Below are positions 86-15,220 of a DNA stretch of 55,413 nucleotides, in pieces; within the stretch, counting starts at the first letter, position 1; every line of letters starts with the position of its first letter. This stretch comes from Planctomycetales bacterium (GTDB lineage: Bacteria > 4484-113). A program made the translations under genes and the position numbers. The stretch lies in NCBI GenBank assembly GCA_030606285.1, contig JAUWGS010000014.1, positions 1-55,413 of the forward strand. The letters run 5' to 3'. The notes below the pieces were generated by a model. It was not told the DNA's origin, searched no databases, and was given only the letters and a program-made list of their open reading frames with translations.

Positions 86-117
86 CGTAGAGTACCTCCC
101 TTCAAGTCCCTACGATG
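83..117 (-). promoter_or_regulatory. Inverted repeat enclosing the ribosome-binding site and start codon
   Basis: CATCGTAG (83-90) and CTACGATG (110-117) are perfect 8-bp complements separated by 19 nt. In the leftward mRNA the downstream arm contains the AUG of the partial gene and the loop contains the GGGAGG ribosome-binding site. The fold could hide the start codon, or the same palindrome could be an operator. The pairing is seen directly; the function is inferred. Confidence 0.5.
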
Positions 118-646
118 TTACATATGTCCTAGAACAGTACATGTAGGAAGTAGGACGGGAAGAGCCTGTAGGGCGGTCATTTATGGCCGCCGGTCTTCGA
201 TGTGTTGAAGAGGCGGCGGGGATGAATCCCCGCCCTACAGAAGAGGATTCCATCCGGGGCCAGTCCGTGTTCGCGTCAACCGAAGCGGGTTTGCCCGACT
301 GGACATCCGACATCATTCCCGTGAGTGTCTTCGCGCAGGATATGGCGTCCTTGGCGGAGCATTTCTCGATGGCGTCGGGATCGGATGCGCGGGCGAGGTA
401 GAGATTGAGCAGGCCTGCTAGTTGGGCGTGGAGTTTGCCCGAGTCGAAGATAAGGTCCTCACTGAGTACGCCGGGCTGACTAGCCCGGCTCTTAGGAGAA
501 TCCGTGCATTCGTCGTTTTCAGAGCGGCGCTGGTCAGCACCGCGTACTCTATTGGGGGACCTGCTGCCATCAGGAGCGCCAGGTCCCGCCCCGCCACAGG
601 CGGGCAAGCCTACAGGGGATTCGCGCATTTCTGAACCATCACACAT
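110..646 (-). CDS. Hypothetical protein frame containing two palindromic repeats (possibly a decayed gene)
   Basis: A 178-codon frame from ATG 646. Its first third is a direct translation of a palindromic repeat copy (464-549) and nearby repeat DNA, and its last part is a translation of the 166-240 repeat. Only the middle, roughly residues 57-135 (for example KLHAQLAGLLNLYLARA and KDAISCAKTLTGMMSD), has the look of a real helical protein. I do not recognise it. No convincing ribosome-binding site precedes the ATG. It may be a small gene invaded in frame by repeats, as happens with Rickettsia palindromic elements, or a remnant whose frame is open by chance. It lies just upstream of the partial HTH gene on the same strand. 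Confidence 0.3.
   Translation of the reverse strand: MCDGSEMRESPVGLPACGGAGPGAPDGSRSPNRVRGADQRRSENDECTDSPKSRASQPGVLSEDLIFDSGKLHAQLAGLLNLYLARASDPDAIEKCSAKDAISCAKTLTGMMSDVQSGKPASVDANTDWPRMESSSVGRGFIPAASSTHRRPAAINDRPTGSSRPTSYMYCSRTYVTS
166..240. repeat. BIME-like palindromic element (GTAG-hairpin ... hairpin-CTAC)
   Basis: The ends CTGTAGGGCGG and CCGCCCTACAG are perfect inverted repeats. Inside are a left hairpin GGCGGTCAT-TT-ATGGCCGCC (one G-T pair), a small central TCTTC/GAAGA hairpin and a right hairpin GGCGGGGAT-GA-ATCCCCGCC. A GTAG tetranucleotide 5' of each outward hairpin is the hallmark of REP/BIME elements mobilised by RAYT transposases. No RAYT gene is in the window. Related ends occur at about 3119-3192, 8250-8280 and 11847-11958. 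Confidence 0.75.
464..549 (-). repeat. Three-way-junction palindromic repeat, copy with 26-nt insertion between hairpins
   Basis: On the minus strand: outer stem GAGTACG/CGTACTC (7 bp), hairpin 1 GGTGCT-GACC-AGCGCC, a spacer, and hairpin 2 GCCGGGCT-AGTC-AGCCCGGC. Relative to the 60-bp copies, 26 nt are inserted in the spacer (plus-strand 499-524). The outer flank TATTGGGG matches the flank of other copies. It is read in frame by the 178-codon frame at 110-646. Confidence 0.8.
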
Positions 647-726
647 ACTTGAAAGGGCTGATTCCTACCCTCCACTTACTATTATAGCAGATATTGGCAA
701 AAAGCGGACACTGATTTGGGGGGAAT

Positions 727-755
727 TTGACATTTACGTCTGAGCCGGATATACT
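727..755 (+). promoter_or_regulatory. Sigma70-type promoter of the methyltransferase gene (leaderless)
   Basis: TTGACA at 727-732, 17-nt spacer, TATACT at 750-755. Only 6 nt separate the -10 from the ATG at 762, so the transcript should start at or next to the start codon. No ribosome-binding site is seen. Confidence 0.75.
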
Positions 756-761
756 ATTCAT

Positions 762-2276
762 ATGTCGGGGGACATCACAGCTGCATATGAGAGACTTGTT
801 CAGGAAAGCGAGAGTCCAGATGCCCTTCTAGATGCTATAATCGGGGGTAACAAGGACAGCCAATTGACTGATAACCTCTCAAAAACGCAACCAGAAGAAG
901 CCAAGAGCAGCGTGAAGCAACAGGAGCATTTAGCCCTGTTTGATCCTGTAATCCCCAAAGGTGCAGATGCCAATAAACCAAACGGTTCGACATTCAGCGA
1001 TCCTGCATTTAGCAGTAACAAGAACGCTCCTATACATCGATGGGTGCCTTGGATTGCAGGATTCTCTTATGAATTTGTGCAGGATGCTATCGTAAGGCAT
1101 CTACGGCATAAGGGCACGGTCTTAGATCCTTTTGCGGGAGTAGGTACGACGCTCGTCACTGCTGTTCTAGCGGGGCACGATGCGATTGGCTTTGAAATCA
1201 ACCCGTATGCAGCGCTCGCATGTCGCACGAAGCTTAGGTCCTATAGAATCGGCCCCAGAAAACTTAACGATCATATTCTGAGCTTTAACAAGTTCTACAG
1301 CCAAGCGATTAGAGACAACTACTCACCACGTAGTGAAGTGCCTTCCGGTTTCAAGACTCGCTCAGCATTCTACAGCCCTCCAGTGCTGCGCAAAGTGCTG
1401 ATAGTACTTGATTTCATCAAAGCTGTAGAAGATGAAGGCGTGCATGACTTATTCAAGCTTGCATTTGGCTCAACAATGATCAAGTACTCAAACTACTCTT
1501 ACGAGCCAAGCTTGGGAAGACGTTCGGCCGCAGGGAAGAGCGATATAGAGGATTTTCCAGTTGGAGAGACGATTTCGGGGAAACTTCGCGAGATGGTCCA
1601 AGACATTGTGTGGATGCGGCAGAAGATGGACGGAAAAGCTCCATCAGTAGAACTCGTTGCTGAGTCGTTCTTCGATGCTTGGAGCGCACTCGACGCAAAT
1701 ACAGTCGACTTAATTGTAACTTCGCCCCCCTACTTGAACAATTACCACTACAACCGCAACACAAGGCCGCATCTCTACTGGCTTGGATACGTCAGTAAAC
1801 CCAGCGATTCTAAACACTTGGAGGAGCAGAACTTCGGTAAGTACTGGCAGACTGTTCGCGAGCGAGAGAGAATTGAGCTTGACTTCGACCCAGGCAATGG
1901 AGATATTGCGGAGAGCCTTGAATTGCTTCGCGGCAAGACTCCTGAGAAAGGCATATACGGCGGAAACGGTTGGGCGAACTACGCAGCAGCTTATTTCAAC
2001 GACTGCCATAGATTCACCAAAGCGGCGAAATACCTACTGAAGCGAAACGCTACAGCATTGGTTGTGATTGGCAATAGCATCCTGCAAGGAGTCATGATTC
2101 CAACGGATCGCTTCCTAGCAAAGATAGCAGAGTCGGTTGGTTTGCAGGTGATAAACATACATGTGCCAAGGGCAACTCGGGTAGGCAACAGCATAATACA
2201 ATCAGATGTGAGAGTCGCCAAAGCCAAGGATTCTCACCAGTTGTACGAAGCAGTAGTCGAGCTGCGAAAGCCCTAG
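762..2276 (+). CDS. Type II DNA amino-methyltransferase (N4-cytosine/N6-adenine class)
   Basis: Transfers a methyl group from AdoMet to an exocyclic amino group of DNA, protecting sites from the adjacent endonuclease. Motif I is LDPFAGVGTT (residues 121-130), preceded by a motif X-like stretch around 86-102. Motif IV is TSPPY (320-324), about 190 residues later, leaving room for target recognition between them. TSPPY is the amino-methyltransferase signature and is frequent in N4-cytosine enzymes; the PC motif of C5 enzymes is absent. The protein is 504 aa. It is convergent with the Eco29kI-type nuclease gene, the two stop codons abutting inside CTAGCTAG. Base composition is visibly more AT-rich than the housekeeping genes to the right, suggesting transfer. 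The exact target base cannot be read from sequence. Confidence 0.88.
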   Translation: MSGDITAAYERLVQESESPDALLDAIIGGNKDSQLTDNLSKTQPEEAKSSVKQQEHLALFDPVIPKGADANKPNGSTFSDPAFSSNKNAPIHRWVPWIAGFSYEFVQDAIVRHLRHKGTVLDPFAGVGTTLVTAVLAGHDAIGFEINPYAALACRTKLRSYRIGPRKLNDHILSFNKFYSQAIRDNYSPRSEVPSGFKTRSAFYSPPVLRKVLIVLDFIKAVEDEGVHDLFKLAFGSTMIKYSNYSYEPSLGRRSAAGKSDIEDFPVGETISGKLREMVQDIVWMRQKMDGKAPSVELVAESFFDAWSALDANTVDLIVTSPPYLNNYHYNRNTRPHLYWLGYVSKPSDSKHLEEQNFGKYWQTVRERERIELDFDPGNGDIAESLELLRGKTPEKGIYGGNGWANYAAAYFNDCHRFTKAAKYLLKRNATALVVIGNSILQGVMIPTDRFLAKIAESVGLQVINIHVPRATRVGNSIIQSDVRVAKAKDSHQLYEAVVELRKP

Positions 2277-2897
2277 CTAGCGCGCACGCTCAATCTTCGT
2301 GATGATGTCCGCTAGGGTCGGGGACTCACCAGTAAGGCGCTCCACCCAAGATCGTCCCGGGTGCATAACATCCCGTTCGGAACGCGCCTGATTATAGCGT
2401 CCCTTCCCGGGATCGTGATTGCCAAAACCGTCCACAACAGTGTTCCACAAGGGATTAAAGCGACGAATCAGCTCTGCCTCTACTAATGTCACGAGGTCCG
2501 TCTCTACTCCCTCTAATATCATGAAACGGCAGCGGAAATCGTCAATTCCCAGGTTCTCGGCCTGCTCGATGCTCCTGGCATGTTCGCCAAGACGTCCGTA
2601 CAAAGTTCGGAGCTCTTCGTCACGCGCTACTCTCGCGGTGCGCCATCCCTGTGGAACTGCCTTGCCTACGTATATAGGCTGAGTACACTCGTCCTCGTTA
2701 GGTAAGACAGCTTCTTTATACAAGTCAAATGTTCCCATGTAGTACAGCACGTAAACGCCAACACCCGTGAACCTACTACTGGGCGGCAGGCTATGAACAG
2801 GCGTCGCTTTTAGGAATTGAATTGCCTTATCGACAACGCCAACGAACTCGGGCGAGCGAAACGTGTGCAATTTGGTCTCTATAGTACCTTCAGACAT
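2277..2897 (-). CDS. Eco29kI-family type II restriction endonuclease (GIY-YIG fold)
   Basis: A 206-aa endonuclease that should cut unmethylated sites; Eco29kI family members whose specificity I recall cleave CCGCGG. Catalytic elements in order: GVYVLYY with Tyr49, PIYVGKA with Tyr76, RLGEHARSI with Arg102 and His106, EAELI with Glu142, FNPLWN with Asn152, and the family-specific tail DGFGNHDPG and HPGRSW. All expected GIY-YIG catalytic residues are present, so it looks active. The start ATG 2897 lies 8 nt after a TATTAT box (2906-2911), another probable leaderless start. Its partner is the convergent amino-methyltransferase. Specificity is inferred from the family only. Confidence 0.92.
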   Translation of the reverse strand: MSEGTIETKLHTFRSPEFVGVVDKAIQFLKATPVHSLPPSSRFTGVGVYVLYYMGTFDLYKEAVLPNEDECTQPIYVGKAVPQGWRTARVARDEELRTLYGRLGEHARSIEQAENLGIDDFRCRFMILEGVETDLVTLVEAELIRRFNPLWNTVVDGFGNHDPGKGRYNQARSERDVMHPGRSWVERLTGESPTLADIITKIERAR

Positions 2898-3027
2898 AGA
2901 TTTCGATAATACAAAATAGCAGAATCACGGTTGAATTGCCAATAGTCGTCAGCTTAGTCGCGTCAAATCCTACACTCCTACATCTTCCCAATGCACCTGA
3001 TTACGACCTGAGCTGCCCCTTGTCGTT

Positions 3028-3072
3028 TAGTAAACTCAGGGCCCGCTGCGGGCGGGCTAGCCCGGCGTACTC
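3028..3072 (-). repeat. Partial or variant palindromic repeat
   Basis: Minus strand: GAGTACG, the palindrome GGGCTAGCCC, then CCCGC-AGC-GGG, ending in TGAGTTTACT. It shares the outer-stem head, hairpin 2 core and ATTGGG flank with the complete copies but lacks hairpin 1, so it appears truncated or rearranged. Confidence 0.5.
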
Positions 3073-3118
3073 ATTGGGAGCGGAACACTCGCATGCTCGC
3101 GCAGAAAGAGGGCACGGC

Positions 3119-3192
3119 GTGCCGTGCCCCTACAGAAGACGGCGGGGCGCGCTTCGGCTACGCTCAGCGTCTGCGACAGGACCCCGCCCTAC
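3119..3192. repeat. CTACAG-ended repeat DNA (relative of the 166-240 element)
   Basis: Two direct GCCC(C)TACAG motifs (about 3124-3133 and 3186-3194) flank a GC-rich stretch with an ACGCT-CAGCGT palindrome. It abuts the three-way-junction copy at 3210, the same pairing of repeat types seen at 166-549, 8181-8280 and 11773-11958. Confidence 0.5.
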
Positions 3193-3209
3193 AGGGAAGA
3201 CCCCCAACC

Positions 3210-3294
3210 GAGTAGGCTGGGCTTCAGCCTGAGTTCAGCCGAACGGCTGACTAGCCCAGCTACTAAGAGCGGCGCTGGTCAGTACCGCGTACTC
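3210..3294 (-). repeat. Three-way-junction palindromic repeat, copy with extra hairpin in loop 2
   Basis: Minus strand: GAGTACG head, hairpin 1 GGTACT-GACC-AGCGCC, spacer GCTCTTAGTA, hairpin 2 arms GCTGGGCT/AGCCCAGC, tail CCTACTC. A 25-nt insertion (3224-3248) sits in hairpin 2 and creates a new hairpin, TCAGCC-GAAC-GGCTGA (3235-3250). The flanks CCCCCAACC and ATCGGGGG lengthen the outer stem. Confidence 0.8.
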
Positions 3295-3303
3295 ATCGGG
3301 GGG

Positions 3304-3756
3304 CTACAGCGAAAAATACGCGGACACGAGCAACTGTGCAACCTCTTCCAGGAACTCGCGGTCATCTTTACCAAACGCGGATGGGGTGTCGGAGTCGATA
3401 TCAATCTCGCCAATGCACTCTTCGCCGCGCAGCATTGGCACGACGATTTCGCTCTTGGTCTCCGGGAAGCACGCCAGGTACTCATCCTGCGAGTGGACGT
3501 CGTCCACAACGACGGTCTCCTTCTTGCGCGCGGCAAGCCCGCAGATGCCCTGCCCGATATCGATGCTCACATGCCCGGTGGCCTCCGGCCCGTCCCACGC
3601 CTCCAGCACGAGCTTATCGCCCTGCACGAGGTATATCCCCACCCAGTTGTAGTGGGCGACTCTTGAGCGCAGCAACGTTACCACCGCCTGCATGCCCGCG
3701 CCCGACTCCGGATGTTCGGTAATCAGCCCGCGGACTCTCGGAAGCAGTTTGCGCAC
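3304..3756 (-). CDS. GAF domain protein, free methionine-(R)-sulfoxide reductase-like
   Basis: A single GAF domain of 150 aa. The core (residues 65-110) reads IGQGICGLA ... VDDVHSQDEYLACFPETKSEIVVP, close to fRMsr proteins, which reduce free methionine-R-sulfoxide using cysteines of the GVCG and IACD motifs. Cys72 and Cys96 occupy these positions, but YLACF is also common in non-catalytic GAF domains, so activity is uncertain. The start is a GTG at 3756 without a clear ribosome-binding site. It is divergent from purB, separated by about 60 bp holding the purB promoter. Confidence 0.7.
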   Translation of the reverse strand: MRKLLPRVRGLITEHPESGAGMQAVVTLLRSRVAHYNWVGIYLVQGDKLVLEAWDGPEATGHVSIDIGQGICGLAARKKETVVVDDVHSQDEYLACFPETKSEIVVPMLRGEECIGEIDIDSDTPSAFGKDDREFLEEVAQLLVSAYFSL

Positions 3757-3780
3757 ACGCGGATTATAAGCCAGATTCCG

Positions 3781-3810
3781 TTGACTTTGCCTGTTGCGGG
3801 CGGATATACT
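3781..3810 (+). promoter_or_regulatory. purB promoter (leaderless type)
   Basis: TTGACT at 3781-3786 and TATACT at 3805-3810 with an 18-nt spacer; 8 nt separate the -10 from the GTG start at 3819. No PurR or PurBox-like element was recognised. Confidence 0.65.
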
Positions 3811-3818
3811 CAGCGGAA

Positions 3819-5504
3819 GTGATTGACCGGTACACCAGGCGGCAGATGGGGCTTATCTTCAATGAGCGCCACAGGTTCGACCTCTGGCTGAAGCTCGAAC
3901 TTGCCGTTGCCGAGGGCTGGGCCCGCCAAGGGCGCATCTCCCAAGATGATTACAAGCGGATGCGCACAAAGGCGCGCTTCAACCTAAAGCTGATGCAGGA
4001 TTACGAGCAGAAGGTGGAGCACGAAGTCGTGGCATTCGTCTCCACCGTCGGCGAGTCGCTGGGCGACCTCTCGCGCTACTTCCATCTCGGCCTGACCAGC
4101 TCGGACGTTATGGACACCGCGCTCAGCCTGCAGATGCAGGAGGCGTGGGCCATTCTCCTGCCTGAAGTCGAGCAGCTCATCAAGCATCTCGGCGCGCTGG
4201 CGATGAAACACCGGCGCACCGTGATGATCGGTCGCACGCACGGCATTCATGCAGAGCCGATAACGTTCGGCCTGAAGGTGCTGGTGTGGCACCAGGAGCT
4301 GAAGCGGGCGCTTGCGCGTATGGAGCGGGCGCGTGAAGAAACGGCGGTGGGTAAGCTATCCGGCGCGGTGGGCAACTATGCTCATGTCCCGCCGGAACTC
4401 GAAGAATGGGTTCTGGCGAAGCTGGGGCTGAAGGCGGAGCCGGTGTCCAACCAGATCGTGCAGCGGGACCGCCACGCGTACGCGCTGTGCGCGCTCGCTA
4501 TTCTAGGCGGCACGCTGGAACGCATCGCCGTGGAGATTCGCAGCCTCCAGCGCACCGAGATCGGCGAGCTCGCGGAGCCGTTCATGGCGGGCCAGAAGGG
4601 GTCGTCGTCCATGCCCCACAAGCGCAACCCGATACTGTGCGAGCGCGTTTCGGGCATTGCGCGGATGCTTCGCGGCTATGCGCACGTGGCGCTGGAGAAC
4701 CAGCCGCTGTGGAACGAGCGCGACATCTCGCATTCCAGCACCGAGCGCGTGACCCTGCCCGACGCGTTTATGCTGGCAGACTACATGGTGGCGAAGATGC
4801 AGTTCGTCATCGAAGGGCTCGTGGTCAACCCCAAGCGGATGGAAGAGAACGTTGGCGCGACCCGCGGACTTATCTTCTCGCAGAATCTCATGCTGGCGCT
4901 TGCCAGACAGGGGCTGTCGCGCGAGGAAGCCTACAACCTCGTGCAGAAGCCGGCGATGCAGGCGTTTGAAGAAGGCAAGCACTTTTACGCGCTGGTGAAG
5001 GACTCGCGCGAGATCCGGAAGCACCTGAGGCTAAAGGAACTCTCGGACGTTTTCAGCGTGGAGCCGCACCTCAGGCACGTGGACGACATCTTCCGCCGGG
5101 TTGGTCTGCTGGAAGCGCCCAAGCCTCCCGCGAAGCCAAAGGCCAAGCCGCCAGCAAGGCCGGAAGCGAAGCCTGGTGCGCGTGAGCGCAGAGCGCCGCC
5201 ATCTCGCAGGCCTCCTCCTCGCAAGCCTCCGTCCGATGAGCGAGCTGAAAAACCGGCGAAATCTGATGCCGAAAGGCCGGAAGCCAAGCCCGGCAGGCGC
5301 AGAGCTTCGTCGACCCGCAGGCCGTATGCCAGCGAAGCTCCGGCTAGCGAGCAGCCAAAAGAACCGGCTAAACTGGATACCGAGAAATCCGCCGCCGAGA
5401 CTGCCAAAAAGCGCCCCGTGAGACGCGGCAGGCGCGGCGGCCGAAGGCGCTCCGCCTCGACGAAATCCAATAAACCATCAGGCAGTACTCAGGAGACTTC
5501 ATAA
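3819..5504 (+). CDS. purB: Adenylosuccinate lyase with long basic, proline/alanine/lysine-rich C-terminal tail
   Basis: Cleaves SAICAR to AICAR and adenylosuccinate to AMP in purine synthesis. The N-terminus (IDRYTRRQMGLIFNE) matches the usual start of bacterial PurB, supporting the GTG at 3819. The fumarase/aspartase signature GSSSMPHKRNP is near residues 262-272; an upstream conserved motif is GRTHGIHAEP. The catalytic body ends near residue 430, the usual family length. A further ~130 residues are low-complexity, rich in Pro, Ala, Lys, Arg and Glu, ending with RRGRRGGRRR and a Ser/Thr tail, like an RNA- or nucleic-acid-binding disordered region. First gene of the purB-purC-purS operon; its stop overlaps the purC start (TAATG). 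Confidence 0.95.
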   Translation: MIDRYTRRQMGLIFNERHRFDLWLKLELAVAEGWARQGRISQDDYKRMRTKARFNLKLMQDYEQKVEHEVVAFVSTVGESLGDLSRYFHLGLTSSDVMDTALSLQMQEAWAILLPEVEQLIKHLGALAMKHRRTVMIGRTHGIHAEPITFGLKVLVWHQELKRALARMERAREETAVGKLSGAVGNYAHVPPELEEWVLAKLGLKAEPVSNQIVQRDRHAYALCALAILGGTLERIAVEIRSLQRTEIGELAEPFMAGQKGSSSMPHKRNPILCERVSGIARMLRGYAHVALENQPLWNERDISHSSTERVTLPDAFMLADYMVAKMQFVIEGLVVNPKRMEENVGATRGLIFSQNLMLALARQGLSREEAYNLVQKPAMQAFEEGKHFYALVKDSREIRKHLRLKELSDVFSVEPHLRHVDDIFRRVGLLEAPKPPAKPKAKPPARPEAKPGARERRAPPSRRPPPRKPPSDERAEKPAKSDAERPEAKPGRRRASSTRRPYASEAPASEQPKEPAKLDTEKSAAETAKKRPVRRGRRGGRRRSASTKSNKPSGSTQETS

Positions 5505-6217
5505 TGAAATGGGAAAAAGGCGAAATGCTCTATGAGGGCAAGGCCAAAAAGCTCTACGCGACCCAAGATCCCGATTACCTGATCGCCGAGTTCAAGGACG
5601 CCCTAACTGCATTCAACGGCAAGTTAAAGGCCGAGCTCGCCGGCAAGGGTGAGTGGAACAACCGCATCTCGTCCGCGATTATGGGCTACCTCAACGAGCA
5701 GGGCGTGGATACGCATTTCGTCGAGCAGATCTCGTCCCACGAGCAGATTGTGAAGAAGCTCAGAATGGTGCCGCTCGAGTCCGTGGTGCGCAACGTCATT
5801 GCCGGTTCATTGCACAAGCGCACCGGCATGCCCGAAGGCACTCCGCTCAGCCGTCCTATCGTCGAGTACTTCTGGAAGAAGGACGAGCTCGATGATCCCA
5901 TGATGTCGCATGACCTCATCCTGGCGCTGGAGATCGCCGATGAGGAGCAGCTTATGGCGTTCCACGAAACATCGCTGCGCATAAATGACCTGCTCGGCGC
6001 GTATATGGATGAACGCGGGATCCTGCTGGTGGACTTCAAGCTGGAGTTCGGCTACTTCCACGGCGATGAGTTGACCGTGGGAGACGAAGTCACGCCGGAC
6101 ACCTGCCGCCTCTGGAACAAAAAGGACATGGTGAAACTGGACAAGGACCGCTTCCGCCGCAAGCTGGGCAACGTCGCGGAAGCGTATCAGGAAGTGCTCG
6201 CGCGGGTGACAGCATAA
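5504..6217 (+). CDS. purC: Phosphoribosylaminoimidazole-succinocarboxamide synthase
   Basis: Makes SAICAR from CAIR, aspartate and ATP, the step before PurB. A 237-aa protein of normal family length, with the typical opening LYEGKAKKLYAT, the motif VPLESVVRNVIAGS, and DFKLEFG near the C-terminal third. The start ATG overlaps the purB stop (TAATG), with AGGAGA about 8 nt upstream inside the end of purB; its stop overlaps the purS start in the same way. This points to translational coupling within one purine operon. Confidence 0.97.
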   Translation: MKWEKGEMLYEGKAKKLYATQDPDYLIAEFKDALTAFNGKLKAELAGKGEWNNRISSAIMGYLNEQGVDTHFVEQISSHEQIVKKLRMVPLESVVRNVIAGSLHKRTGMPEGTPLSRPIVEYFWKKDELDDPMMSHDLILALEIADEEQLMAFHETSLRINDLLGAYMDERGILLVDFKLEFGYFHGDELTVGDEVTPDTCRLWNKKDMVKLDKDRFRRKLGNVAEAYQEVLARVTA

Positions 6218-6486
6218 TGAGATTCGCCGGCATCGTTTCTATCAGATTGCGTGAAGACCTGCTGGACCCGCAGGGCAAAGCCGTAATGACCGGACTAGAA
6301 CAGCTTGGCTTTGAGACCGTTGAGGACGTCCGCGTGGGCAAGCAGCTAAGAGTTGTCTTTGAGGCCAAAGACGGCGAAGAGGCAATGGCGCGCTTAGAAG
6401 AGATGTGCACCAAGCTATTGGTGAATCCGGTCACCGAGGACTACGACACGGTGGTTGTGGCCGAAGGCGAGCCCGAGCCGGACTGA
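6217..6486 (+). CDS. purS: Phosphoribosylformylglycinamidine synthase subunit PurS
   Basis: A small 89-aa subunit that bridges PurL and PurQ in the three-part FGAM synthase of Gram-positives, cyanobacteria, archaea and relatives; Proteobacteria use a single large PurL instead. Recognisable from the N-terminal beta strand, DPQGKAV, the GFETVEDVRVGKQ stretch and the closing NPVTEDY motif. The start overlaps the purC stop (TAATG). purQ and purL, which often follow, are absent here: the next gene is comM with its own promoter, so they must lie elsewhere. Confidence 0.93.
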   Translation: MRFAGIVSIRLREDLLDPQGKAVMTGLEQLGFETVEDVRVGKQLRVVFEAKDGEEAMARLEEMCTKLLVNPVTEDYDTVVVAEGEPEPD

Positions 6487-6499
6487 GATTTCCGGGCCC

Positions 6500-6528
6500 T
6501 TGACATTCTTTTTCCCGGGGGCTATACA
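6500..6528 (+). promoter_or_regulatory. Sigma70-type promoter of comM
   Basis: TTGACA at 6500-6505, 17-nt spacer, TATACA at 6523-6528, the best promoter match in the window. The leader is about 70 nt and carries GGGGAGG just before the start. A second -10-like TACAAT is at 6546-6551. Confidence 0.75.
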
Positions 6529-6602
6529 GGCGTAGAGTTATATGCTACAATGGTAAACATACTAAACTTGTGTGAACCAACCTATCTGGGGAGGCAAGTG
6601 AT

Positions 6603-8138
6603 ATGTTTGCCAGAATTGAAACTGCGGCGCTAAAGGGGCTTACCGCCCGCGAGGTGTCCGTCGAGGTGGACATCAAGCGGGGGATGAGCGATTTCAGCCT
6701 TGTCGGGCTGCCCGACGCCAGCGTGAAGGAAGCCGAGAAGCGCGTGGAGTCCGCAATCCGCAACTCCGACCTGGAATACCCCTATGCGCGAACGACGATC
6801 AATCTCGCGCCGGCGGAGGTGCGCAAGACCGGCTCGTGGTACGACCTGCCGATTGCGTTGGGGATGCTTATGGCGTCGGGACAGGTGCCGACCGCCGCCT
6901 TAGACGACACGGTGACGCTGGGCGAGCTTTCATTGGACGGCAGCCTGCGGGCGGTGCCGGGCGTGCTTTCAGCCGCGCTGATGTGCAACAAGCGGAAGCG
7001 GTCGAAGATGTTAGTCCCGGCGGGCAACTCAGCCGAAGCGTCCTGCTTCGACGGGTTGACGGTATATCCGGTGAACCACCTGGCGGAGGCGGCGAGTTTT
7101 CTGCGCGGCGACATGCAGATTGAGCCGCAGCCCGTGATGTCCTTCACTGAGCTTTTAAAGCATGCGGCGTTTGAACTCGACTTCGCCGATGTTAAGGGGC
7201 AGGAACACGCCAAGCGCGCGCTGGAAGTCGCTGCGGCGGGCTGCCACAACGTGCTGATGATGGGCCCGCCGGGCTCGGGCAAGACGATGCTCTCGTCGCG
7301 CATGCCGTCGATTTTGCCGCCGCTTACGCAGGAAGAGGCCATTGAAGTCTCGTCGGTATACTCCGTTGCCGGACTGCTGGGCGAGGAGCGGCACCTTGTC
7401 ACCACCCGCCCCTTCCGCCATCCGCACCATACCATCTCCGGCCCCGGGCTCATCGGCGGCGGGACGATCCCGCAGCCCGGTGAGATCTCGATGGCCCACA
7501 ACGGCGTGCTGTTCCTCGACGAGATGATGGAGTTCCCCAAGGGCCTGCTAGAGCTGCTTCGCCAGCCGATGGAGGACGGCCAGATAACCATCTCGCGGGC
7601 GCAGCTTTCCTCCACGTTCCCCTCGCGCTTCATGCTGCTGGCCGCGACCAATCCCTGCCCTTGCGGGTACTACGGCGACCCAACGCGCCCCTGCCGCTGC
7701 ACGATGGGCGAGATACTCAACTACCGCAAGCGCCTGTCGGGGCCGCTGCTCGACCGCATCGACATCGTGCTGGAAGTGCCGCGCCTGACGATTGAGAAAA
7801 TCACCGGCCCGTCGGGGGAAACCAGCGCGCAGGTGCGCGAGCGGGTGCAGAAGGCGTGGACGCGGCAGCAAAAGCGCTTCCGGATGCGCCCCAAGCAGCG
7901 GCTGAATTCGCAGCTTCGCGCGGGGGATATCGAAAAGGCGTGCGTTTTAGACGAGGCGAGCACGAATCTGCTGAACCGGGCGCACGACCGGCTGGGCCTG
8001 ACGACGCGGGGCTACCAGAGCATCAAGCGGGTCGCCCGCACCATCGCCGACCTGGACGGAGCCGAGGTCATCAAGGTCTCCCACCTCGCCGAAGCCATCC
8101 AGTACCGCGCAGGGGAGGAACGGCTGAGGAATTTGTAG
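6603..8138 (+). CDS. comM: YifB/ComM family Mg-chelatase-like AAA+ ATPase
   Basis: A 511-aa protein. The N-terminal ~190 residues form the Lon-S5-like ChlI domain (KRGMSDFSLVGLPDASVKE). Then comes the AAA+ core with Walker A GPPGSGKT (about 221-228), Walker B LFLDEMMEF and sensor ATNPCPCGYYGD, and the C-terminal Mg-chelatase subdomain (LNRAHDRLGLTTRGYQSIKRVARTIADL-type region). In naturally competent bacteria ComM is a hexameric helicase promoting branch migration during transformation; in others the role is less clear. The start ATG is preceded by GGGGAGG and a strong promoter. It is monocistronic: a repeat region follows. Confidence 0.95.
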   Translation: MFARIETAALKGLTAREVSVEVDIKRGMSDFSLVGLPDASVKEAEKRVESAIRNSDLEYPYARTTINLAPAEVRKTGSWYDLPIALGMLMASGQVPTAALDDTVTLGELSLDGSLRAVPGVLSAALMCNKRKRSKMLVPAGNSAEASCFDGLTVYPVNHLAEAASFLRGDMQIEPQPVMSFTELLKHAAFELDFADVKGQEHAKRALEVAAAGCHNVLMMGPPGSGKTMLSSRMPSILPPLTQEEAIEVSSVYSVAGLLGEERHLVTTRPFRHPHHTISGPGLIGGGTIPQPGEISMAHNGVLFLDEMMEFPKGLLELLRQPMEDGQITISRAQLSSTFPSRFMLLAATNPCPCGYYGDPTRPCRCTMGEILNYRKRLSGPLLDRIDIVLEVPRLTIEKITGPSGETSAQVRERVQKAWTRQQKRFRMRPKQRLNSQLRAGDIEKACVLDEASTNLLNRAHDRLGLTTRGYQSIKRVARTIADLDGAEVIKVSHLAEAIQYRAGEERLRNL

Positions 8139-8180
8139 GGGCAAAACACGAAAAAACGCCCGCGTAATCGTTCCCCAATG

Positions 8181-8240
8181 GAGTACGCGGTGCTGACCAG
8201 CGCCGCTCCTAGCTGCTGGGCTAGTCAGCCCAGCCTACTC
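8181..8240 (+). repeat. Three-way-junction palindromic repeat, compact 60-bp copy
   Basis: Outer stem GAGTA/TACTC, hairpin 1 GGTGCT-GACC-AGCGCC, spacer GCTCCTA, hairpin 2 GCTGGGCT-AGTC-AGCCCAGC (8 perfect pairs). Flanks CCCCAATG and GGTTGCGG can extend the outer stem. It lies between comM and the convergent 427-aa gene, and is followed at about 8250-8280 by a GCCGCCCTACAG-ended fragment of the second repeat type. Confidence 0.8.
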
Positions 8241-8314
8241 GGTTGCGGAGCCTGCCGAAGGCCGGGTGGCCGCCCTACAGAATACAGCGCGGCTGCTTAT
8301 CGACGCCACCGTAA

Positions 8315-9598
8315 TTACTCACCGTCGCCGCCTTCGTCCTCGCCCTCCGGTTGCGGCTTCAGCGGCGGGTATTCGAATTCCTCGTACCTGGTGAGCCGAT
8401 GCTCGACTTTCTCGATATCACCGAACTCCCTCAGCCTCATATAATCGGAAAAGCTCACGAGGTCTCGCCAGGTCTTGCGACTATGCTGTTTGACCATTTC
8501 CTCTAGCTGCTCGCTGTGTCCGCTCCTATCACATATCGCATTTTGCAGCAGAAGATGAGTCTCTTTGATTTCCAGGCACGCTTGAACTCCCTTAGCGTTA
8601 CCCGCGCCCGCATACGCTTCGGCTGCCCGCTTATTGAGCAACCGTATCAGGTTGCAGGTCACAAGGCCCCGGATGCTCCCCTGTGCAGGTTCAAGACGTG
8701 CCAGGCGTACGACGAGCCGCTTGAGTTTGGAAAGCGCAGCAATAAACTCCTCGTCCGACATCTCGTCAGCAATGTACGCGTAGGTGTGCCTGATCTCTAA
8801 ATAATCCGGCTGAATCGGATCCAACACTATGTACCGACAAATCAGCACGGAAGGGACGGTCTCCGTCTGCACCACCCAGTGGTCGTAGATTACTTCTGTC
8901 AACGGAGCGACGGGAAAACTGAAGTTTTCAGCTGTCAAAGCCTCGTCTATCAGCGACAGTGTTTCCTCAAGTTCACCCCGTTCAGCCGCCGCAGTAGCAG
9001 CCAGCAGGCTGATGAAACCGTTTTGCGGCTGCAACCTTCGGAGATCGCTGACGCGCTGAACGAATTCGTCGGTATCGGGGTCCAGGCTTCGACAAGACCT
9101 GTAAGCGATTGGGGCATAGCTATCGTTGAATGAACTCATCTTGTTATGCGCGGCTTCAGCCTCACGCTCAGCCTCTTCCTTCGAAGGCTTCGCCGGGCCT
9201 GCGAACGACGAAACCGAATCCCAAAATAGCCAGCGTTCGAACCAGTATTCCGGGTTGTCAGAATACTGCTCGGCTTGGCCCGAAAAGAAGACGCGCAGCC
9301 GGTCCATGGCAAGCTCCGTGCTAAAGGCCATGGAAGCGAAACCTGACAGCTCTTCCAGCGGGTACATACAGCTACCGTAGAGCAACCACATATTCTCTTC
9401 GACAATCCGCAGACCGCTCTCCATCTTCCAGACCTTCTTGCCGACTTCGCTGAGTTCTGGTGGCGGGTCGATTGGCTTGGGCGTTCTTTTCTGGGAGCGG
9501 GTGTGCTGGACAATCACGCCAGAGCCGAATCCCAGCCCGAAGCACAGCGCAACTGCCGCGACTACGCCGATAATCGTGCCTATCCTGCGTGCTCGCAT
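8315..9598 (-). CDS. Membrane-anchored protein of unknown function, probably helical-repeat
   Basis: 427 aa. Residues about 7-30 form one transmembrane helix (IGTIIGVVAAVALCFGLGFG) after a basic MRARR start, so the protein is probably held in the inner membrane with its body outside. The rest is alpha-helical and Glu/Leu-rich, with spacing like TPR proteins (for example LLAATAAAERGELEETLSLI), but no clean repeat was defined. The C-terminal tail EGEDEGGDGE is acidic. I do not recognise a family. The start ATG lies 6 nt from a TATAAT box (9605-9610), suggesting a leaderless mRNA. The next two leftward genes, transcribed toward it, are also exported. Confidence 0.75.
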   Translation of the reverse strand: MRARRIGTIIGVVAAVALCFGLGFGSGVIVQHTRSQKRTPKPIDPPPELSEVGKKVWKMESGLRIVEENMWLLYGSCMYPLEELSGFASMAFSTELAMDRLRVFFSGQAEQYSDNPEYWFERWLFWDSVSSFAGPAKPSKEEAEREAEAAHNKMSSFNDSYAPIAYRSCRSLDPDTDEFVQRVSDLRRLQPQNGFISLLAATAAAERGELEETLSLIDEALTAENFSFPVAPLTEVIYDHWVVQTETVPSVLICRYIVLDPIQPDYLEIRHTYAYIADEMSDEEFIAALSKLKRLVVRLARLEPAQGSIRGLVTCNLIRLLNKRAAEAYAGAGNAKGVQACLEIKETHLLLQNAICDRSGHSEQLEEMVKQHSRKTWRDLVSFSDYMRLREFGDIEKVEHRLTRYEEFEYPPLKPQPEGEDEGGDGE

Positions 9599-9604
9599 GC
9601 AGCC

Positions 9605-9610
9605 ATTATA
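9605..9610 (-). promoter_or_regulatory. -10 box (TATAAT) 6 nt before the 427-aa gene
   Basis: A consensus TATAAT on the minus strand with only GGCTGC between it and the ATG. No good -35 is seen at the usual distance. It also falls just beyond the stop of the upstream STN-like gene, so it could give the downstream gene its own leaderless transcript. Confidence 0.5.
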
Positions 9611-9638
9611 GCTTTAGCGTTGGAAACTACACTCCCGC

Positions 9639-10532
9639 CTATTCAACTCTGTCCGGCCAGATGACTATCTTTTCGAGGTTCACCGCGGTGAGGATGAGGT
9701 CGAGCGCGAGGTCGAACGGCACGTTCTCCAGGTTCATCGTCAGCGACCCGATGCCCTCGCGCGGGATGGTGGCCTGGAAGACGTCGGCTCCGCGAAACTC
9801 GCCGGGAAGCGTGGCGCTTGCGGGAGGTGGCGGCAGCTCGCCGCTGCCCGGGCCGCCGGGACGCCGCCTGCCGCCGGTAGGATCGTCGCTCCAGTAGGGG
9901 TCGAGGATGATGGTCACGCCGCTGATCTCGCTCATGAACATCAGCACTTCGCGGAAGTCCGCGCCGTTTAGATTTAGGTTCACCAGGATGTCCGAATACC
10001 TATACTTCGTCTCGAACGGCGGCAGCCGGTAGTCGCCCTCGGCGTAACCCCCGCCCACCCCCATGCGCGGATAGTCCTCGTCGGTAGCGATGGCGCGCGA
10101 AGCGCTTCCCTTCAGCGGCTCGTCGGTGCCCTGCGTGATGACGAGGATCACGTTCTCGCGGTCGGGCAGCGCGTCGCTCGTCGGCGCTTCGGAAAGCCCA
10201 AACGTCCCGCCGGCAAGCGAGCGCGAGACTGCCACCTCAGCGCCGCCTTCCGCGGGTGTTATCTCGATGCGCTGCGCCCAGTATCCGTCGAGCAGCTTGC
10301 GCACCGGCTCGTCCACCGCCAGGCCTTTCACGCGGAAGCGCACCTTGAGCTTCGTCTCCGTTACGTCAGAGTATTCGCTGCCCGCGAAATACAGGCAATC
10401 CAGGCCCTGGCGGCTCATCATCACGGCCTTGCCCGGAATGATTGTCGTACGCGCACTGTCGCGCGCAGCGAATGATGCAGTGGCCAAAAGCGCCACCGCT
10501 GCGACAATTGTTACTATCAGGATGTTTCTCAT
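9639..10532 (-). CDS. Exported secretin-N/STN-like domain protein without a secretin channel
   Basis: 297 aa with signal peptide (residues 1-23, ending SFAA). Near residue 178 the sequence becomes ILVNLNLNGADFREVLMFM followed by SEISGVTIILDP, and at the end LTMNLENVPFDLALDLIL, the two halves of the STN/secretin N0-type fold seen in PilQ, GspD and TonB receptors. A Gly/Pro-rich insertion of about 50 residues separates the halves. The protein stops right after this domain, so there is no beta-barrel secretin. The N-terminal part (25-170) is not recognised. It lies 34 bp downstream of the DUF4384 gene and is probably co-transcribed. A role as periplasmic adaptor is inference. Confidence 0.7.
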   Translation of the reverse strand: MRNILIVTIVAAVALLATASFAARDSARTTIIPGKAVMMSRQGLDCLYFAGSEYSDVTETKLKVRFRVKGLAVDEPVRKLLDGYWAQRIEITPAEGGAEVAVSRSLAGGTFGLSEAPTSDALPDRENVILVITQGTDEPLKGSASRAIATDEDYPRMGVGGGYAEGDYRLPPFETKYRYSDILVNLNLNGADFREVLMFMSEISGVTIILDPYWSDDPTGGRRRPGGPGSGELPPPPASATLPGEFRGADVFQATIPREGIGSLTMNLENVPFDLALDLILTAVNLEKIVIWPDRVE

Positions 10533-10566
10533 GGTTTACTCACCATCCTTCATCACAGCCCAAAAA

Positions 10567-11682
10567 TCAGTCCACGCCGATGTTGAGCGCCGTCAGGTGC
10601 GCGCGCAGCTCCACCCGGCGGACTCTCAGCCCTCGGCTGGCGAACGGGTCGACTCTCAGCACGACGCGATTGCCACCGTACCGGATGTAGCCGTCAAGCG
10701 CGAATATCTCCGGCGGGTTGTCGTCGTAAAACTGCCAGTGGCGCGGCTGGTAGTCGTGGGTCACGGTCACACCGTTGAAGCGTATGCGAAGCGATGACCC
10801 TGCGTCATCGCCCAGCAGCCACCCGCCCAGCGATTCATCCACCGACATATACAGCAGCAAATAGATGTTCGGCGTGTGGACGGGGATGTCCTCCACGATG
10901 AACGTCAGCTCCATATCTCCGCCCGGCTCGACCAGCCAGTACTCGGCAGGTCCCAGCTCGGTAAAGCCGCTAAAGATCCCGGCGTCGGTGTAAACGGTGA
11001 GACCGCGCGAGAGGATCGCGTTGCCGTAAGGCTGGACGTACAGGTAACGGTCGCCCATCTCCCGGCTGTACCACGTGTGCGGCCAGCGGTAGAACGGGTC
11101 GTCGTCCACGTAATCGTAGGGGTAGCGCCCGCGCACGCTTTCGCGCACGCTAATCACCAGCCACTGCTCGCGGATGACGTTATACAGGCGCGCTTCCGGC
11201 GTGAATGGGTATTCGCACAGAGTCTTGAAGCTCGCATAACCGAGCGGAATGGAACTGAGCACGGCGCGCAGGTAGTCATCGCCCGCGGGTTCGCTGATCT
11301 CGGCGCTGAACGAGTAGCGGAAGCCTTCGCTTACGGCGCGGTTTTTCAGCACGACGCGCGCGATTCCGTCCGGCGCGTAGTCAATGATGCTTACGTATCC
11401 GCCGCGCCCGCCTTCAAACAGGATATCCAGCCTTTCGCCGACGGCCCACTCCTCGCGGTTGACTGACGTCTTGAACTCAAGGCTCGTGCGCGTGGAGTAA
11501 TCGGGGAACTTGTCCGGCGGATGGTAGTTGACGACCGGCCGCTCCGCCAGTTCCTGCGGCGTTATGCCTTTGACCGCGAACGAAGACTCGTCGCCGCGCA
11601 GGAAACGCTCCGCGCGCAGCGGCATGGCGCACAGAAGCAGAACTGAAATGCACGCGAACGCAACTGTCAGCGACCTCACCAT
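10567..11682 (-). CDS. Exported DUF4384 domain protein
   Basis: 371 aa with a signal peptide (MVRSLTVAFACISVLLLCAMPLRA). Residues about 55-150 fit DUF4384: after SLEFKTSVNREEWAVGERL comes a beta-sandwich core with GYVSIIDYAPDGIARVV. DUF4384 domains occur in secreted proteins and near caspase-like or kinase genes; their molecular role is not defined. The C-terminal half has many Tyr and Trp residues (for example YYWPHTWYSREMGDRYL-like stretches) and looks beta-rich. First gene of a probable operon with the STN-like protein. Upstream lies the 11683-12084 repeat region. Confidence 0.7.
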   Translation of the reverse strand: MVRSLTVAFACISVLLLCAMPLRAERFLRGDESSFAVKGITPQELAERPVVNYHPPDKFPDYSTRTSLEFKTSVNREEWAVGERLDILFEGGRGGYVSIIDYAPDGIARVVLKNRAVSEGFRYSFSAEISEPAGDDYLRAVLSSIPLGYASFKTLCEYPFTPEARLYNVIREQWLVISVRESVRGRYPYDYVDDDPFYRWPHTWYSREMGDRYLYVQPYGNAILSRGLTVYTDAGIFSGFTELGPAEYWLVEPGGDMELTFIVEDIPVHTPNIYLLLYMSVDESLGGWLLGDDAGSSLRIRFNGVTVTHDYQPRHWQFYDDNPPEIFALDGYIRYGGNRVVLRVDPFASRGLRVRRVELRAHLTALNIGVD

Positions 11683-11772
11683 CGCCCACCATTCTAATAG
11701 ACGCAGCGCACAATGTCTTGTTCGCAGGCCGCAGGTGGGTAAACCTGGAGACCGCCGCTCCGCACTCGCGCT

Positions 11773-11832
11773 GGGTAGGCCGGGCTAACCAGCCCGGCGA
11801 TTAGGAGCGGCGCTGGTGAGCACCGCCTACCC
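11773..11832 (-). repeat. Three-way-junction palindromic repeat, 60-bp copy with compensatory changes
   Basis: Minus strand: outer stem GGGTAGG/CCTACCC (other copies GAGTACG/CGTACTC), hairpin 1 GGTGCT-CACC-AGCGCC, spacer GCTCCTAATC, hairpin 2 GCCGGGCT-GGTT-AGCCCGGC. The A-T pair at position 2 of the outer stem has become G-C on both arms, and loop 2 differs while the stem is intact. Flanked by GGTTGGGG as in the other copies. Confidence 0.8.
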
Positions 11833-11846
11833 GGTTGGGGGCTTCT

Positions 11847-11958
11847 CTGTAGGGCGGCAACGCTCCGTCGCCAAAGTTGCTCTGGCGCGTCGGAGACTTG
11901 TATGCCGCCGTGACTCATCCCCAAACAAGACGGCGCGGTACAAGTCCGCGCCCTACAG
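11847..11958. repeat. GTAG...CTAC inverted-end element, 112 bp
   Basis: Begins CTGTAGGGCG and ends CGCGCCCTACAG, the same ends as the 166-240 element. The interior differs (GCAACG ... CGTCGGAGAC ... GACGGCGCGG) but has several GC-rich inverted segments. It lies 15 bp from a three-way-junction copy. Confidence 0.65.
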
Positions 11959-11967
11959 AAGATAAAG

Positions 11968-12029
11968 AGCCGGGCTGGTGAGTCGCCGACGCGCCATAGC
12001 GCTATGGCGACGGCGCGCCCGGCGTACTC
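11968..12029. repeat. Variant palindromic repeat with 18-bp perfect palindrome
   Basis: Shares the GCCGGGCTGGTGAG start and GGCGTACTC end with the three-way-junction family, but the centre is replaced by CGCCATAGC-GCTATGGCG (11992-12009), a perfect palindrome flanked by further complementary GTCGCCGACG/CGACGGCGCG blocks. Confidence 0.55.
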
Positions 12030-12084
12030 ATGGGATGGCGGGCAAGTCCCTACGGGGGAAGGTGCAGCATCGAAGCTGAGCTCC

Positions 12085-12675
12085 CTACTTGGTCGCCAGT
12101 CCTACGAAATGGCGCAATACCGTCAGGTCGTCGGTCATTTCCGGGTGGAACGTCAGGCCCAGGACGTTGCCCTTGCGCACTGCGACAATCTCGTCTCCCA
12201 GCCAGCCGAACGGCTCTGTGGGCTGCACCATGTGGGTTATCGCGGGCGCGCGGATGAACACTCCCGGCACCGTGCGTTCATCGCTGTCCAGCCGCAGGCG
12301 CACGCTTTGCTCAAACGAGTCCACCTGGCTGCCGTAGGCGTTGCGCGAAACGGTGATATTGAGAAGCCCCAGCGGAGCCACCTTCGAAGCTTCCTCGTCG
12401 AGCACCTCTGCGAGCATTATGATTCCGGCGCAGGTGCCCATCACCGGAGTGCCCGCCTGAGCCATCTTGCGCACGGCAGGCCAGAGCCCGTTTTCGTAAC
12501 CCAGAAGGGTCATCGTGGAGCTTTCCCCGCCAGGGATAACCAGCGCGTCCAACCCAGCCAGCTCCTCCGGCGAGTGAACCAGGCGCGTGCCGGCTCCCGC
12601 GCGATGGAATGCGTGCTTATGCGCGGCGAAGTTGCCCTGTAGCGCAATGATACCGATTGTGGGTTTGCCAGGCAC
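12085..12675 (-). CDS. pdxT: Pyridoxal 5'-phosphate synthase glutaminase subunit
   Basis: Hydrolyses glutamine and channels ammonia to PdxS for vitamin B6 synthesis. Class I amidotransferase triad: Cys82 in GTCAG, His177 and Glu179 in FHPEMTDD. The glycine-rich PGGESST (49-54) and the oxyanion region are normal, as is the length (196 aa). The start is a GTG at 12675 giving the usual opening KPTIGIIALQGNF. pdxS, often directly upstream, is not in the window. Divergent from the lipoprotein gene at 12781. Confidence 0.95.
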   Translation of the reverse strand: MPGKPTIGIIALQGNFAAHKHAFHRAGAGTRLVHSPEELAGLDALVIPGGESSTMTLLGYENGLWPAVRKMAQAGTPVMGTCAGIIMLAEVLDEEASKVAPLGLLNITVSRNAYGSQVDSFEQSVRLRLDSDERTVPGVFIRAPAITHMVQPTEPFGWLGDEIVAVRKGNVLGLTFHPEMTDDLTVLRHFVGLATK

Positions 12676-12780
12676 AGGTAGCTCTTTTGCAAAGGCTTCG
12701 GAAGTAATCTATACTGAACCTGAGACAATTTGCAAGCGTTGGGGTAAAATTACTCTAGCCCTGCGGGTAAGGAGAAGGCT

Positions 12781-15192: not shown

Positions 15193-15220
15193 CGTCGGTT
15201 CGGCATTTCACGCGAAACAA

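Follow-up and report, generated by a model that had tools for sequence, protein, structure and literature searches.

The repeats dispersed along the window, by which we mean the whole 55,413-nucleotide stretch that was analysed, very probably belong to a family of GTAG-tagged REPs, and those with the appearance of a three-way junction are, on the same reading, head-head REP heterodimers (REPIN/BIME doublets) in which a type 1 half and a type 2 half carry their tags outward. The spread of REP-type short hairpin repeats is ascribed to a small transposase of single-stranded DNA. The family is a new one of an already known kind, the comparison with the published GTAG-tagged REPs, which have 24 consensus sequences, having been made by description and not by stem/loop sequence. 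The first-pass annotation, which had known of no described family with such a layout, is not supported on this point, since inverted GTAG-hairpin pairs have been published under the names REP head-head dimer, BIME and REPIN (PMC3733652, PMC3116915).

All four copies previously reported in the window (464-549, 3210-3294, 8181-8240 and 11773-11832) were found when these positions were read, refolded and aligned. The alignment contains 51 invariant columns, and the copies match a common profile with nhmmer E values of 1e-20 to 1e-23, which places the family far above chance. Each 60-bp copy consists of two homologous half-units in inverted orientation. Read on its tag strand, a half-unit comprises a C-run, 3-4 nt, the tag GRGTA(G/C), a hairpin of the form GCNGNGCT-NAYY-AGCNCNGC with an 8-bp stem and a 4-nt loop, and TCTT. 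The 5' arm is GCGGYGCT or GCGGGGCT in type 1 half-units and GCYGGGCT in type 2. Half-units are also found alone (53 of the 119 in the genome are singletons), which makes the half-unit the elementary repeat in place of the three-way junction. The CCCCAA/TTGGGG flanks that had been taken to extend the outer stem are present, and are the C-runs found before half-units in general, single ones included. Hairpin 1 varies between the copies (it reads GGTACT in copy 2, and its loop is CACC in copy 4); the paired states reported for hairpin 2 (GCTGGGCT/AGCCCAGC versus GCCGGGCT/AGCCCGGC) and for the outer stem (GAGTA/TACTC versus GGGTA/TACCC) were correctly described.

Table. Half-units and related features in the window, with occurrences of one nested hairpin at other loci (R1, covariance model of the half-unit).
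Feature	Position	Strand	Basis
Copy 1, type 2 half-unit with upstream C-run; tag GAGTAC, GCCGGGCT-GACT-AGCCCGGC, TCTT	456..493	+	R1 match, E=6.4e-10
Copy 1, 26-nt spacer between half-units; spacer class found in 8 doublets	494..519	.	Doublet tabulation
Copy 1, type 1 half-unit; tag GAGTAC, GCGGTGCT-GACC-AGCGCCGC	520..557	-	R1, E=1.2e-9
Copy 2, type 2 half-unit with loop insert; tag GAGTAG, GCTGGGC/..AGCCCAGC	3202..3264	+	R1, E=4.5e-5
Copy 2, 25-nt self-complementary loop insert TTCAGCCTGAGTTCAGCCGAACGGC at fixed point after GGGC	3223..3247	+	Insert listing
Copy 2, type 1 half-unit; tag GAGTAC, GCGGTACT-GACC-AGCGCCGC	3265..3302	-	R1, E=1.8e-9
Copy 3, type 1 half-unit; tag GAGTAC	8173..8210	+	R1, E=3.5e-9
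Copy 3, type 2 half-unit; tag GAGTAG, GCTGGGCT/AGCCCAGC	8211..8248	-	R1, E=2.9e-7
Copy 4, type 2 half-unit; tag GGGTAG, GCCGGGCT/AGCCCGGC	11765..11802	+	R1, E=2.8e-7
Copy 4, type 1 half-unit; tag GGGTAG	11803..11840	-	R1, E=2.7e-10
Fifth half-unit, unpaired; tag GAGTAC, nested GCGCCGTCGCCATAGC...GTCGGCGAC hairpin in loop	11965..12037	-	R1, E=4.6e-4
Probable half-unit remnant (GAGTACGCCGGGCTAG...)	3051..3079	-	Weak nhmmer match, E=0.44
REP of another GTAG family (GTAGGGCGGGG hairpin)	215..238	-	
REP of another GTAG family (GTAGGGGCACGGC hairpin)	3110..3133	-	
REP of another GTAG family (GTAGGGCGCGG hairpin, then GTCTT)	11932..11956	-	
Nested GCGCCGTCGCCATAGC...GTCGGCGAC hairpin, in at least three GTAG REP families	L040 10543-10554; L041 61-72; L137 40-51; window 11965-12037	- (L040)	

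Genomes were searched with a covariance model of the half-unit (R1), as the first-pass annotation had proposed for the source genome and its relatives, and matches were counted at E<0.01. The 2.3-Mb MAG contains 119 such matches, a genome of the same genus 27 and a genome of the same family 11, and none was found with the model in 57 further genomes, four of the same order among them. When 84,980 species were scanned for the exact pattern, the sole match was the congener (G001), the MAG GMC4.metabat2.94 (JAOZQG01). The family is apparently restricted to one bacterial family in a poorly sampled lineage. The half-units are mostly intergenic, with 13 of 64 (20%) inside ORFs of at least 200 codons as against 76% of random positions. 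Where half-units are neighbours, 27 pairs are head-head (tag-outward), one is tail-tail (tag-inward) and six are tandem; the head-head spacers measure 0-2 bp (15 cases), 11-12 bp (3), 26 bp (8) or 18 bp (1). Every one of the 29 tabulated doublets joins a type 1 to a type 2 half, the partner of YGGGC being GGNGC or GGGGC. Intergenic placement, outward tags, unlike halves and preferred spacers are diagnostic of GTAG-tagged REPs in head-head heterodimers (BIME/REPIN).

Three observations concern the sequence around the copies. At window 762-2897 a DNA methylase (N6_N4_Mtase) gene lies beside a convergent Eco29kI-type restriction endonuclease gene, and the two are likely a restriction-modification pair. 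A short stretch that is possibly coding on the minus strand and the region beside it (window 281-450 and 627-747) recur on contig C15 (L043 4520-4690 and 4838-4920), the 627-747 part having further occurrences in the congener, on several of its contigs. No Pfam match was obtained for the ORF at window 110-646.

The hairpin covariation noted at first pass is real. In an alignment of 49 half-units 99.2% of the cells of the hairpin were paired and the covariation score was 0.276, well above the 0.070 of shuffled alignments; with 109 distinct matches, a set that was fitted to the model and so leans towards it, the values were 98.4% and 0.265 versus 0.069. At hairpin pair 17/32 the states C-G, G-C, T-A and T-G were all seen. 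Because the two halves of a doublet differ, covariation can also separate the clover, with its two local hairpins, from a single long hairpin. In the 13 clean doublets analysed, the structure with two hairpins and an outer stem was 93.4% paired and scored above every shuffle, whereas the one-long-hairpin structure was 80.8% paired and its score was reached by 57 of 500 shuffles. Covariation thus supports two local hairpins over a single long one.

In the outer stem itself no clear separate covariation is seen. Its sixth pair is mismatched in 6 of the 13 clean doublets, and the tags match at this position in 15 of 29 doublets, which is the chance expectation from tag frequencies. Such a mismatch rate fits independently varying tags, and the outer stem amounts to the shared tag in inverted orientation; the three-way layout seen at first pass is there, as two inverted half-units whose outer stem covaries little. 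In the half-unit alignments the tag strand has many T-G wobbles and few A-C mismatches. This is a hint that folding takes place on the tag strand, but a weak one, because the wobbles mostly represent a single inherited type 1 state. In DNA folding, copies 3 and 4 each formed a long hairpin on one strand; the opposite strand gave two local hairpins in copy 3 and the full clover in copy 4. Both strands of copy 1 folded into a long hairpin, and copy 2 formed two separate stem-loops.

Among the 119 half-units of the genome, 21 exceed the plain form in length. Self-complementary inserts of four kinds (about 19-36 nt, though some are longer) share one position at the top of the 5' arm, following GCNGNGC. 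The 25-nt insert of the TTCAGCCTGAGTTCAGCCGAACGGC type was met eight times in the stretches examined, always within half-units of the GRGTA(G/C) family, and the GCGCCGTCGCCATAGC...GTCGGCGAC insert is shared with the loops of two further GTAG hairpins, GTAGGGTGAGG... (contig C4) and GTAGTCCAGCCC... (C7 and C29). Loop inserts are unusual, yet they have a precedent, because large self-complementary loops are known in Bradyrhizobium REPs (PMC3733652). It is conceivable, albeit rather unlikely, that the REP loop acts as a fixed docking point for mini-hairpins, and that hairpin-into-hairpin transposition on single-stranded DNA would give rise to ever larger branched REPs. The insert GCGC-CGTC-GCCATAGC was also considered as a CGTC-tagged REP, which it resembles in outline, and this was rejected because published CGTC stems start with A/T pairs.

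Comparison with the congener revealed turnover of the copies. Its genome is syntenic with window 2750-15200, and the doublet that it carries at the site orthologous to copy 3 is longer, having an insert in a loop and a more extended spacer. At this one place GCCGGGCT/AGCCCGGC in the congener stands against GCTGGGCT/AGCCCAGC here, a double change that may also be due to replacement by another copy. The site of copy 2 holds a single half-unit in the opposite orientation, that of copy 4 none (no model match there), and two more orthologous sites also differ between the congeners. A clean pair of empty and occupied sites was not found by synteny with the congener, the intergenic regions being too divergent for exact insertion boundaries. 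In the same-family genome (G002), the site downstream of yifB (contig C61, L130 1-520) contains repeated copies of GGACTACGGGCGTCTCGCCCGTAGCGGAATGCGAG together with a possible remnant of the GRGTA(G/C) half-unit family.

The genome was also examined for a RAYT or Y1 transposase, and it encodes four intact-looking RAYT-like proteins (on contigs C26, C30, C25 and C29) and one fragment. Their HUH motifs read HFH, HLH, HLH and HVH, and a downstream tyrosine is visible in the sequence. Two lie above the NCBIfam REP_Tyr_transpos cut-off, one just under it (76 of 80 bits) and one is weaker; the C25 protein matches the E. coli TnpA-REP, PDB 4ER8 (2.4e-6). Of 10 relatives, 9 have RAYTs, and the majority of these genomes lack the GRGTA(G/C) half-unit family, so that a RAYT alone does not imply the family. 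The C26 and C30 RAYTs are directly flanked by palindromes of other GTAG families, and among the RAYTs listed in ten genomes none is a dedicated REPtron with the half-unit family as immediate flank on both sides. About 470 bp separate the C26 RAYT from a half-unit doublet, the RAYT fragment on C15 (L043 4983-5207, minus strand), which has an in-frame TAG, lies between two half-unit doublets, and the family occurs 0.1-0.25 kb from two RAYTs of the same-family genome (C77 and C57). Because the genome is so rich in REPs, this proximity is only suggestive.

This richness was apparent in the copy-enriched stretches of the genome, where GTAG was followed by a perfect hairpin 201 times, compared with 5-59 times for four control tetranucleotides, 9 times for CTAG and 25 times for GTAC, the last mostly within the half-unit family. 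TCTT followed the hairpin in 74 of the 201 GTAG cases and in none behind the four controls. Several GTAG REP families therefore coexist in the genome. The RAYT genes at L036 4826-5443 and L037 17165-17767 have inverted copies of GTAGGGGCAATTCACGAATTGCCC and GTAGGGGCACAGCATGCTGTGCCC on their flanks, which look like REPs of their own.

The pattern fits the earlier suggestion of propagation through a folded single strand, and the most likely course would be the following. When the tag strand becomes single-stranded, in replication or repair, each half-unit would form its own hairpin, giving the clover. A RAYT (an HUH/Y1 transposase) would recognise tag and hairpin and could nick near CT dinucleotides, for example in the conserved TCTT, whereupon the doublet would be copied or moved to a new intergenic site. 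We infer that a RAYT of this genome acts on the half-unit family, and likewise the cleavage chemistry.

Other explanations were weighed against the REP reading, which has a point against it in that about 40% of 111 half-units carry GTAC instead of the GTAG tag found in about 54%. That the repeats are a structured cis-regulatory RNA or a small RNA family, with hairpins that act in transcripts and not as mobile DNA, appears very improbable. The hairpins covary, as they would in such a family, T-G (in RNA, G-U) wobbles exceed A-C mismatches on the tag strand, some copies lie downstream of genes, and REPs can act as RNA elements too (PMC3733652). Nevertheless, Rfam gave no match except tRNAs in the window and three copy-rich stretches, the gene context is inconsistent (copy 3 lies between convergent genes and copy 4 upstream of the start of a minus-strand gene), and copies have been gained, lost and reversed between the congeners; the geometry, moreover, is one of symmetric doublets.

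We consider it very improbable that selection acts on the whole three-way junction together with its outer stem, for instance as an attC-like recombination site. One strand of copy 4 folds in exactly this manner and the tags are inverted copies of each other, yet copies 1 and 2 fold otherwise on both strands, the copies are dispersed without forming an array, and position 6 of the outer stem is paired in only about half of the doublets, as fits independent tags. A MITE, or what is left of a classical DD(D/E) insertion sequence, bounded by the terminal inverted repeats CCCCAA-GAGTA, is an explanation to which we assign hardly any probability. It would account for doublets of about 76 bp in total with inverted ends and C-runs; however, single half-units exist in 53 cases and are preceded by the C-run as well, the internal hairpins and not the ends only are conserved and covarying, and a consistent target-site duplication was not seen by eye when the copies were read. 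No intact IS bounded by half-unit ends was met in the flanks examined. An attC-like site, a CRISPR and an intrinsic terminator had also been set aside on layout, the copies being dispersed, without a T-run and among genes of mixed orientation.

The REP reading adds a family in a poorly sampled lineage in which several REP types and RAYTs coexist. It opens no new class, and the fold that is read by RAYTs becomes a more testable question, the clover having been proposed in 2011 as the RAYT-recognised form (PMC3116915). Di Nocera et al. 2013 (PMC3733652) described GTAG-tagged REPs that form head-head heterodimers with conserved spacers and fall into subfamilies with complementary stem changes. 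The present half-units resemble them in the unpaired terminal tag, the 6-13 bp stem with complementary changes, the short loop with some large self-complementary ones, the extragenic location, the mostly outward doublets, the preference for heterodimers and the preferred spacers. They differ in that the tag is GTAG or GTAC, the published degeneracy of the GTAG tag lying mainly at positions 2 and 3. The published heterodimers fold separately or as one long hairpin (PMC3733652).

The REPIN of Bertels and Rainey 2011 (PMC3116915) is a replicative doublet for which both long-hairpin and clover folds were considered, the clover being named in the legend of Fig. S11. It shares with the doublets analysed here the inverted REP pair, preferred spacings, compensatory changes and, in DNA folding predictions, two alternative folds; in contrast, covariation here favours the clover where the REPIN paper stresses the long hairpin, and the doublets here are all heterodimers. 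In BIME/TnpA-REP systems (the REPtrons of E. coli, Stenotrophomonas and Marinomonas; PMC8266576) tag and hairpin are recognised in single-stranded DNA and cleavage takes place at CT. A REP and an inverted REP joined by a linker, GTAG before the hairpin, RAYT genes in the genome and a CT near the hairpin, as in the known cleavage sites, are all found here as well, but no RAYT is directly flanked by the half-unit family. With its short, nearly perfect palindrome, the half-unit hairpin is nearer to group-3 REPs than to the bulged REPs of E. coli (PMC8266576).
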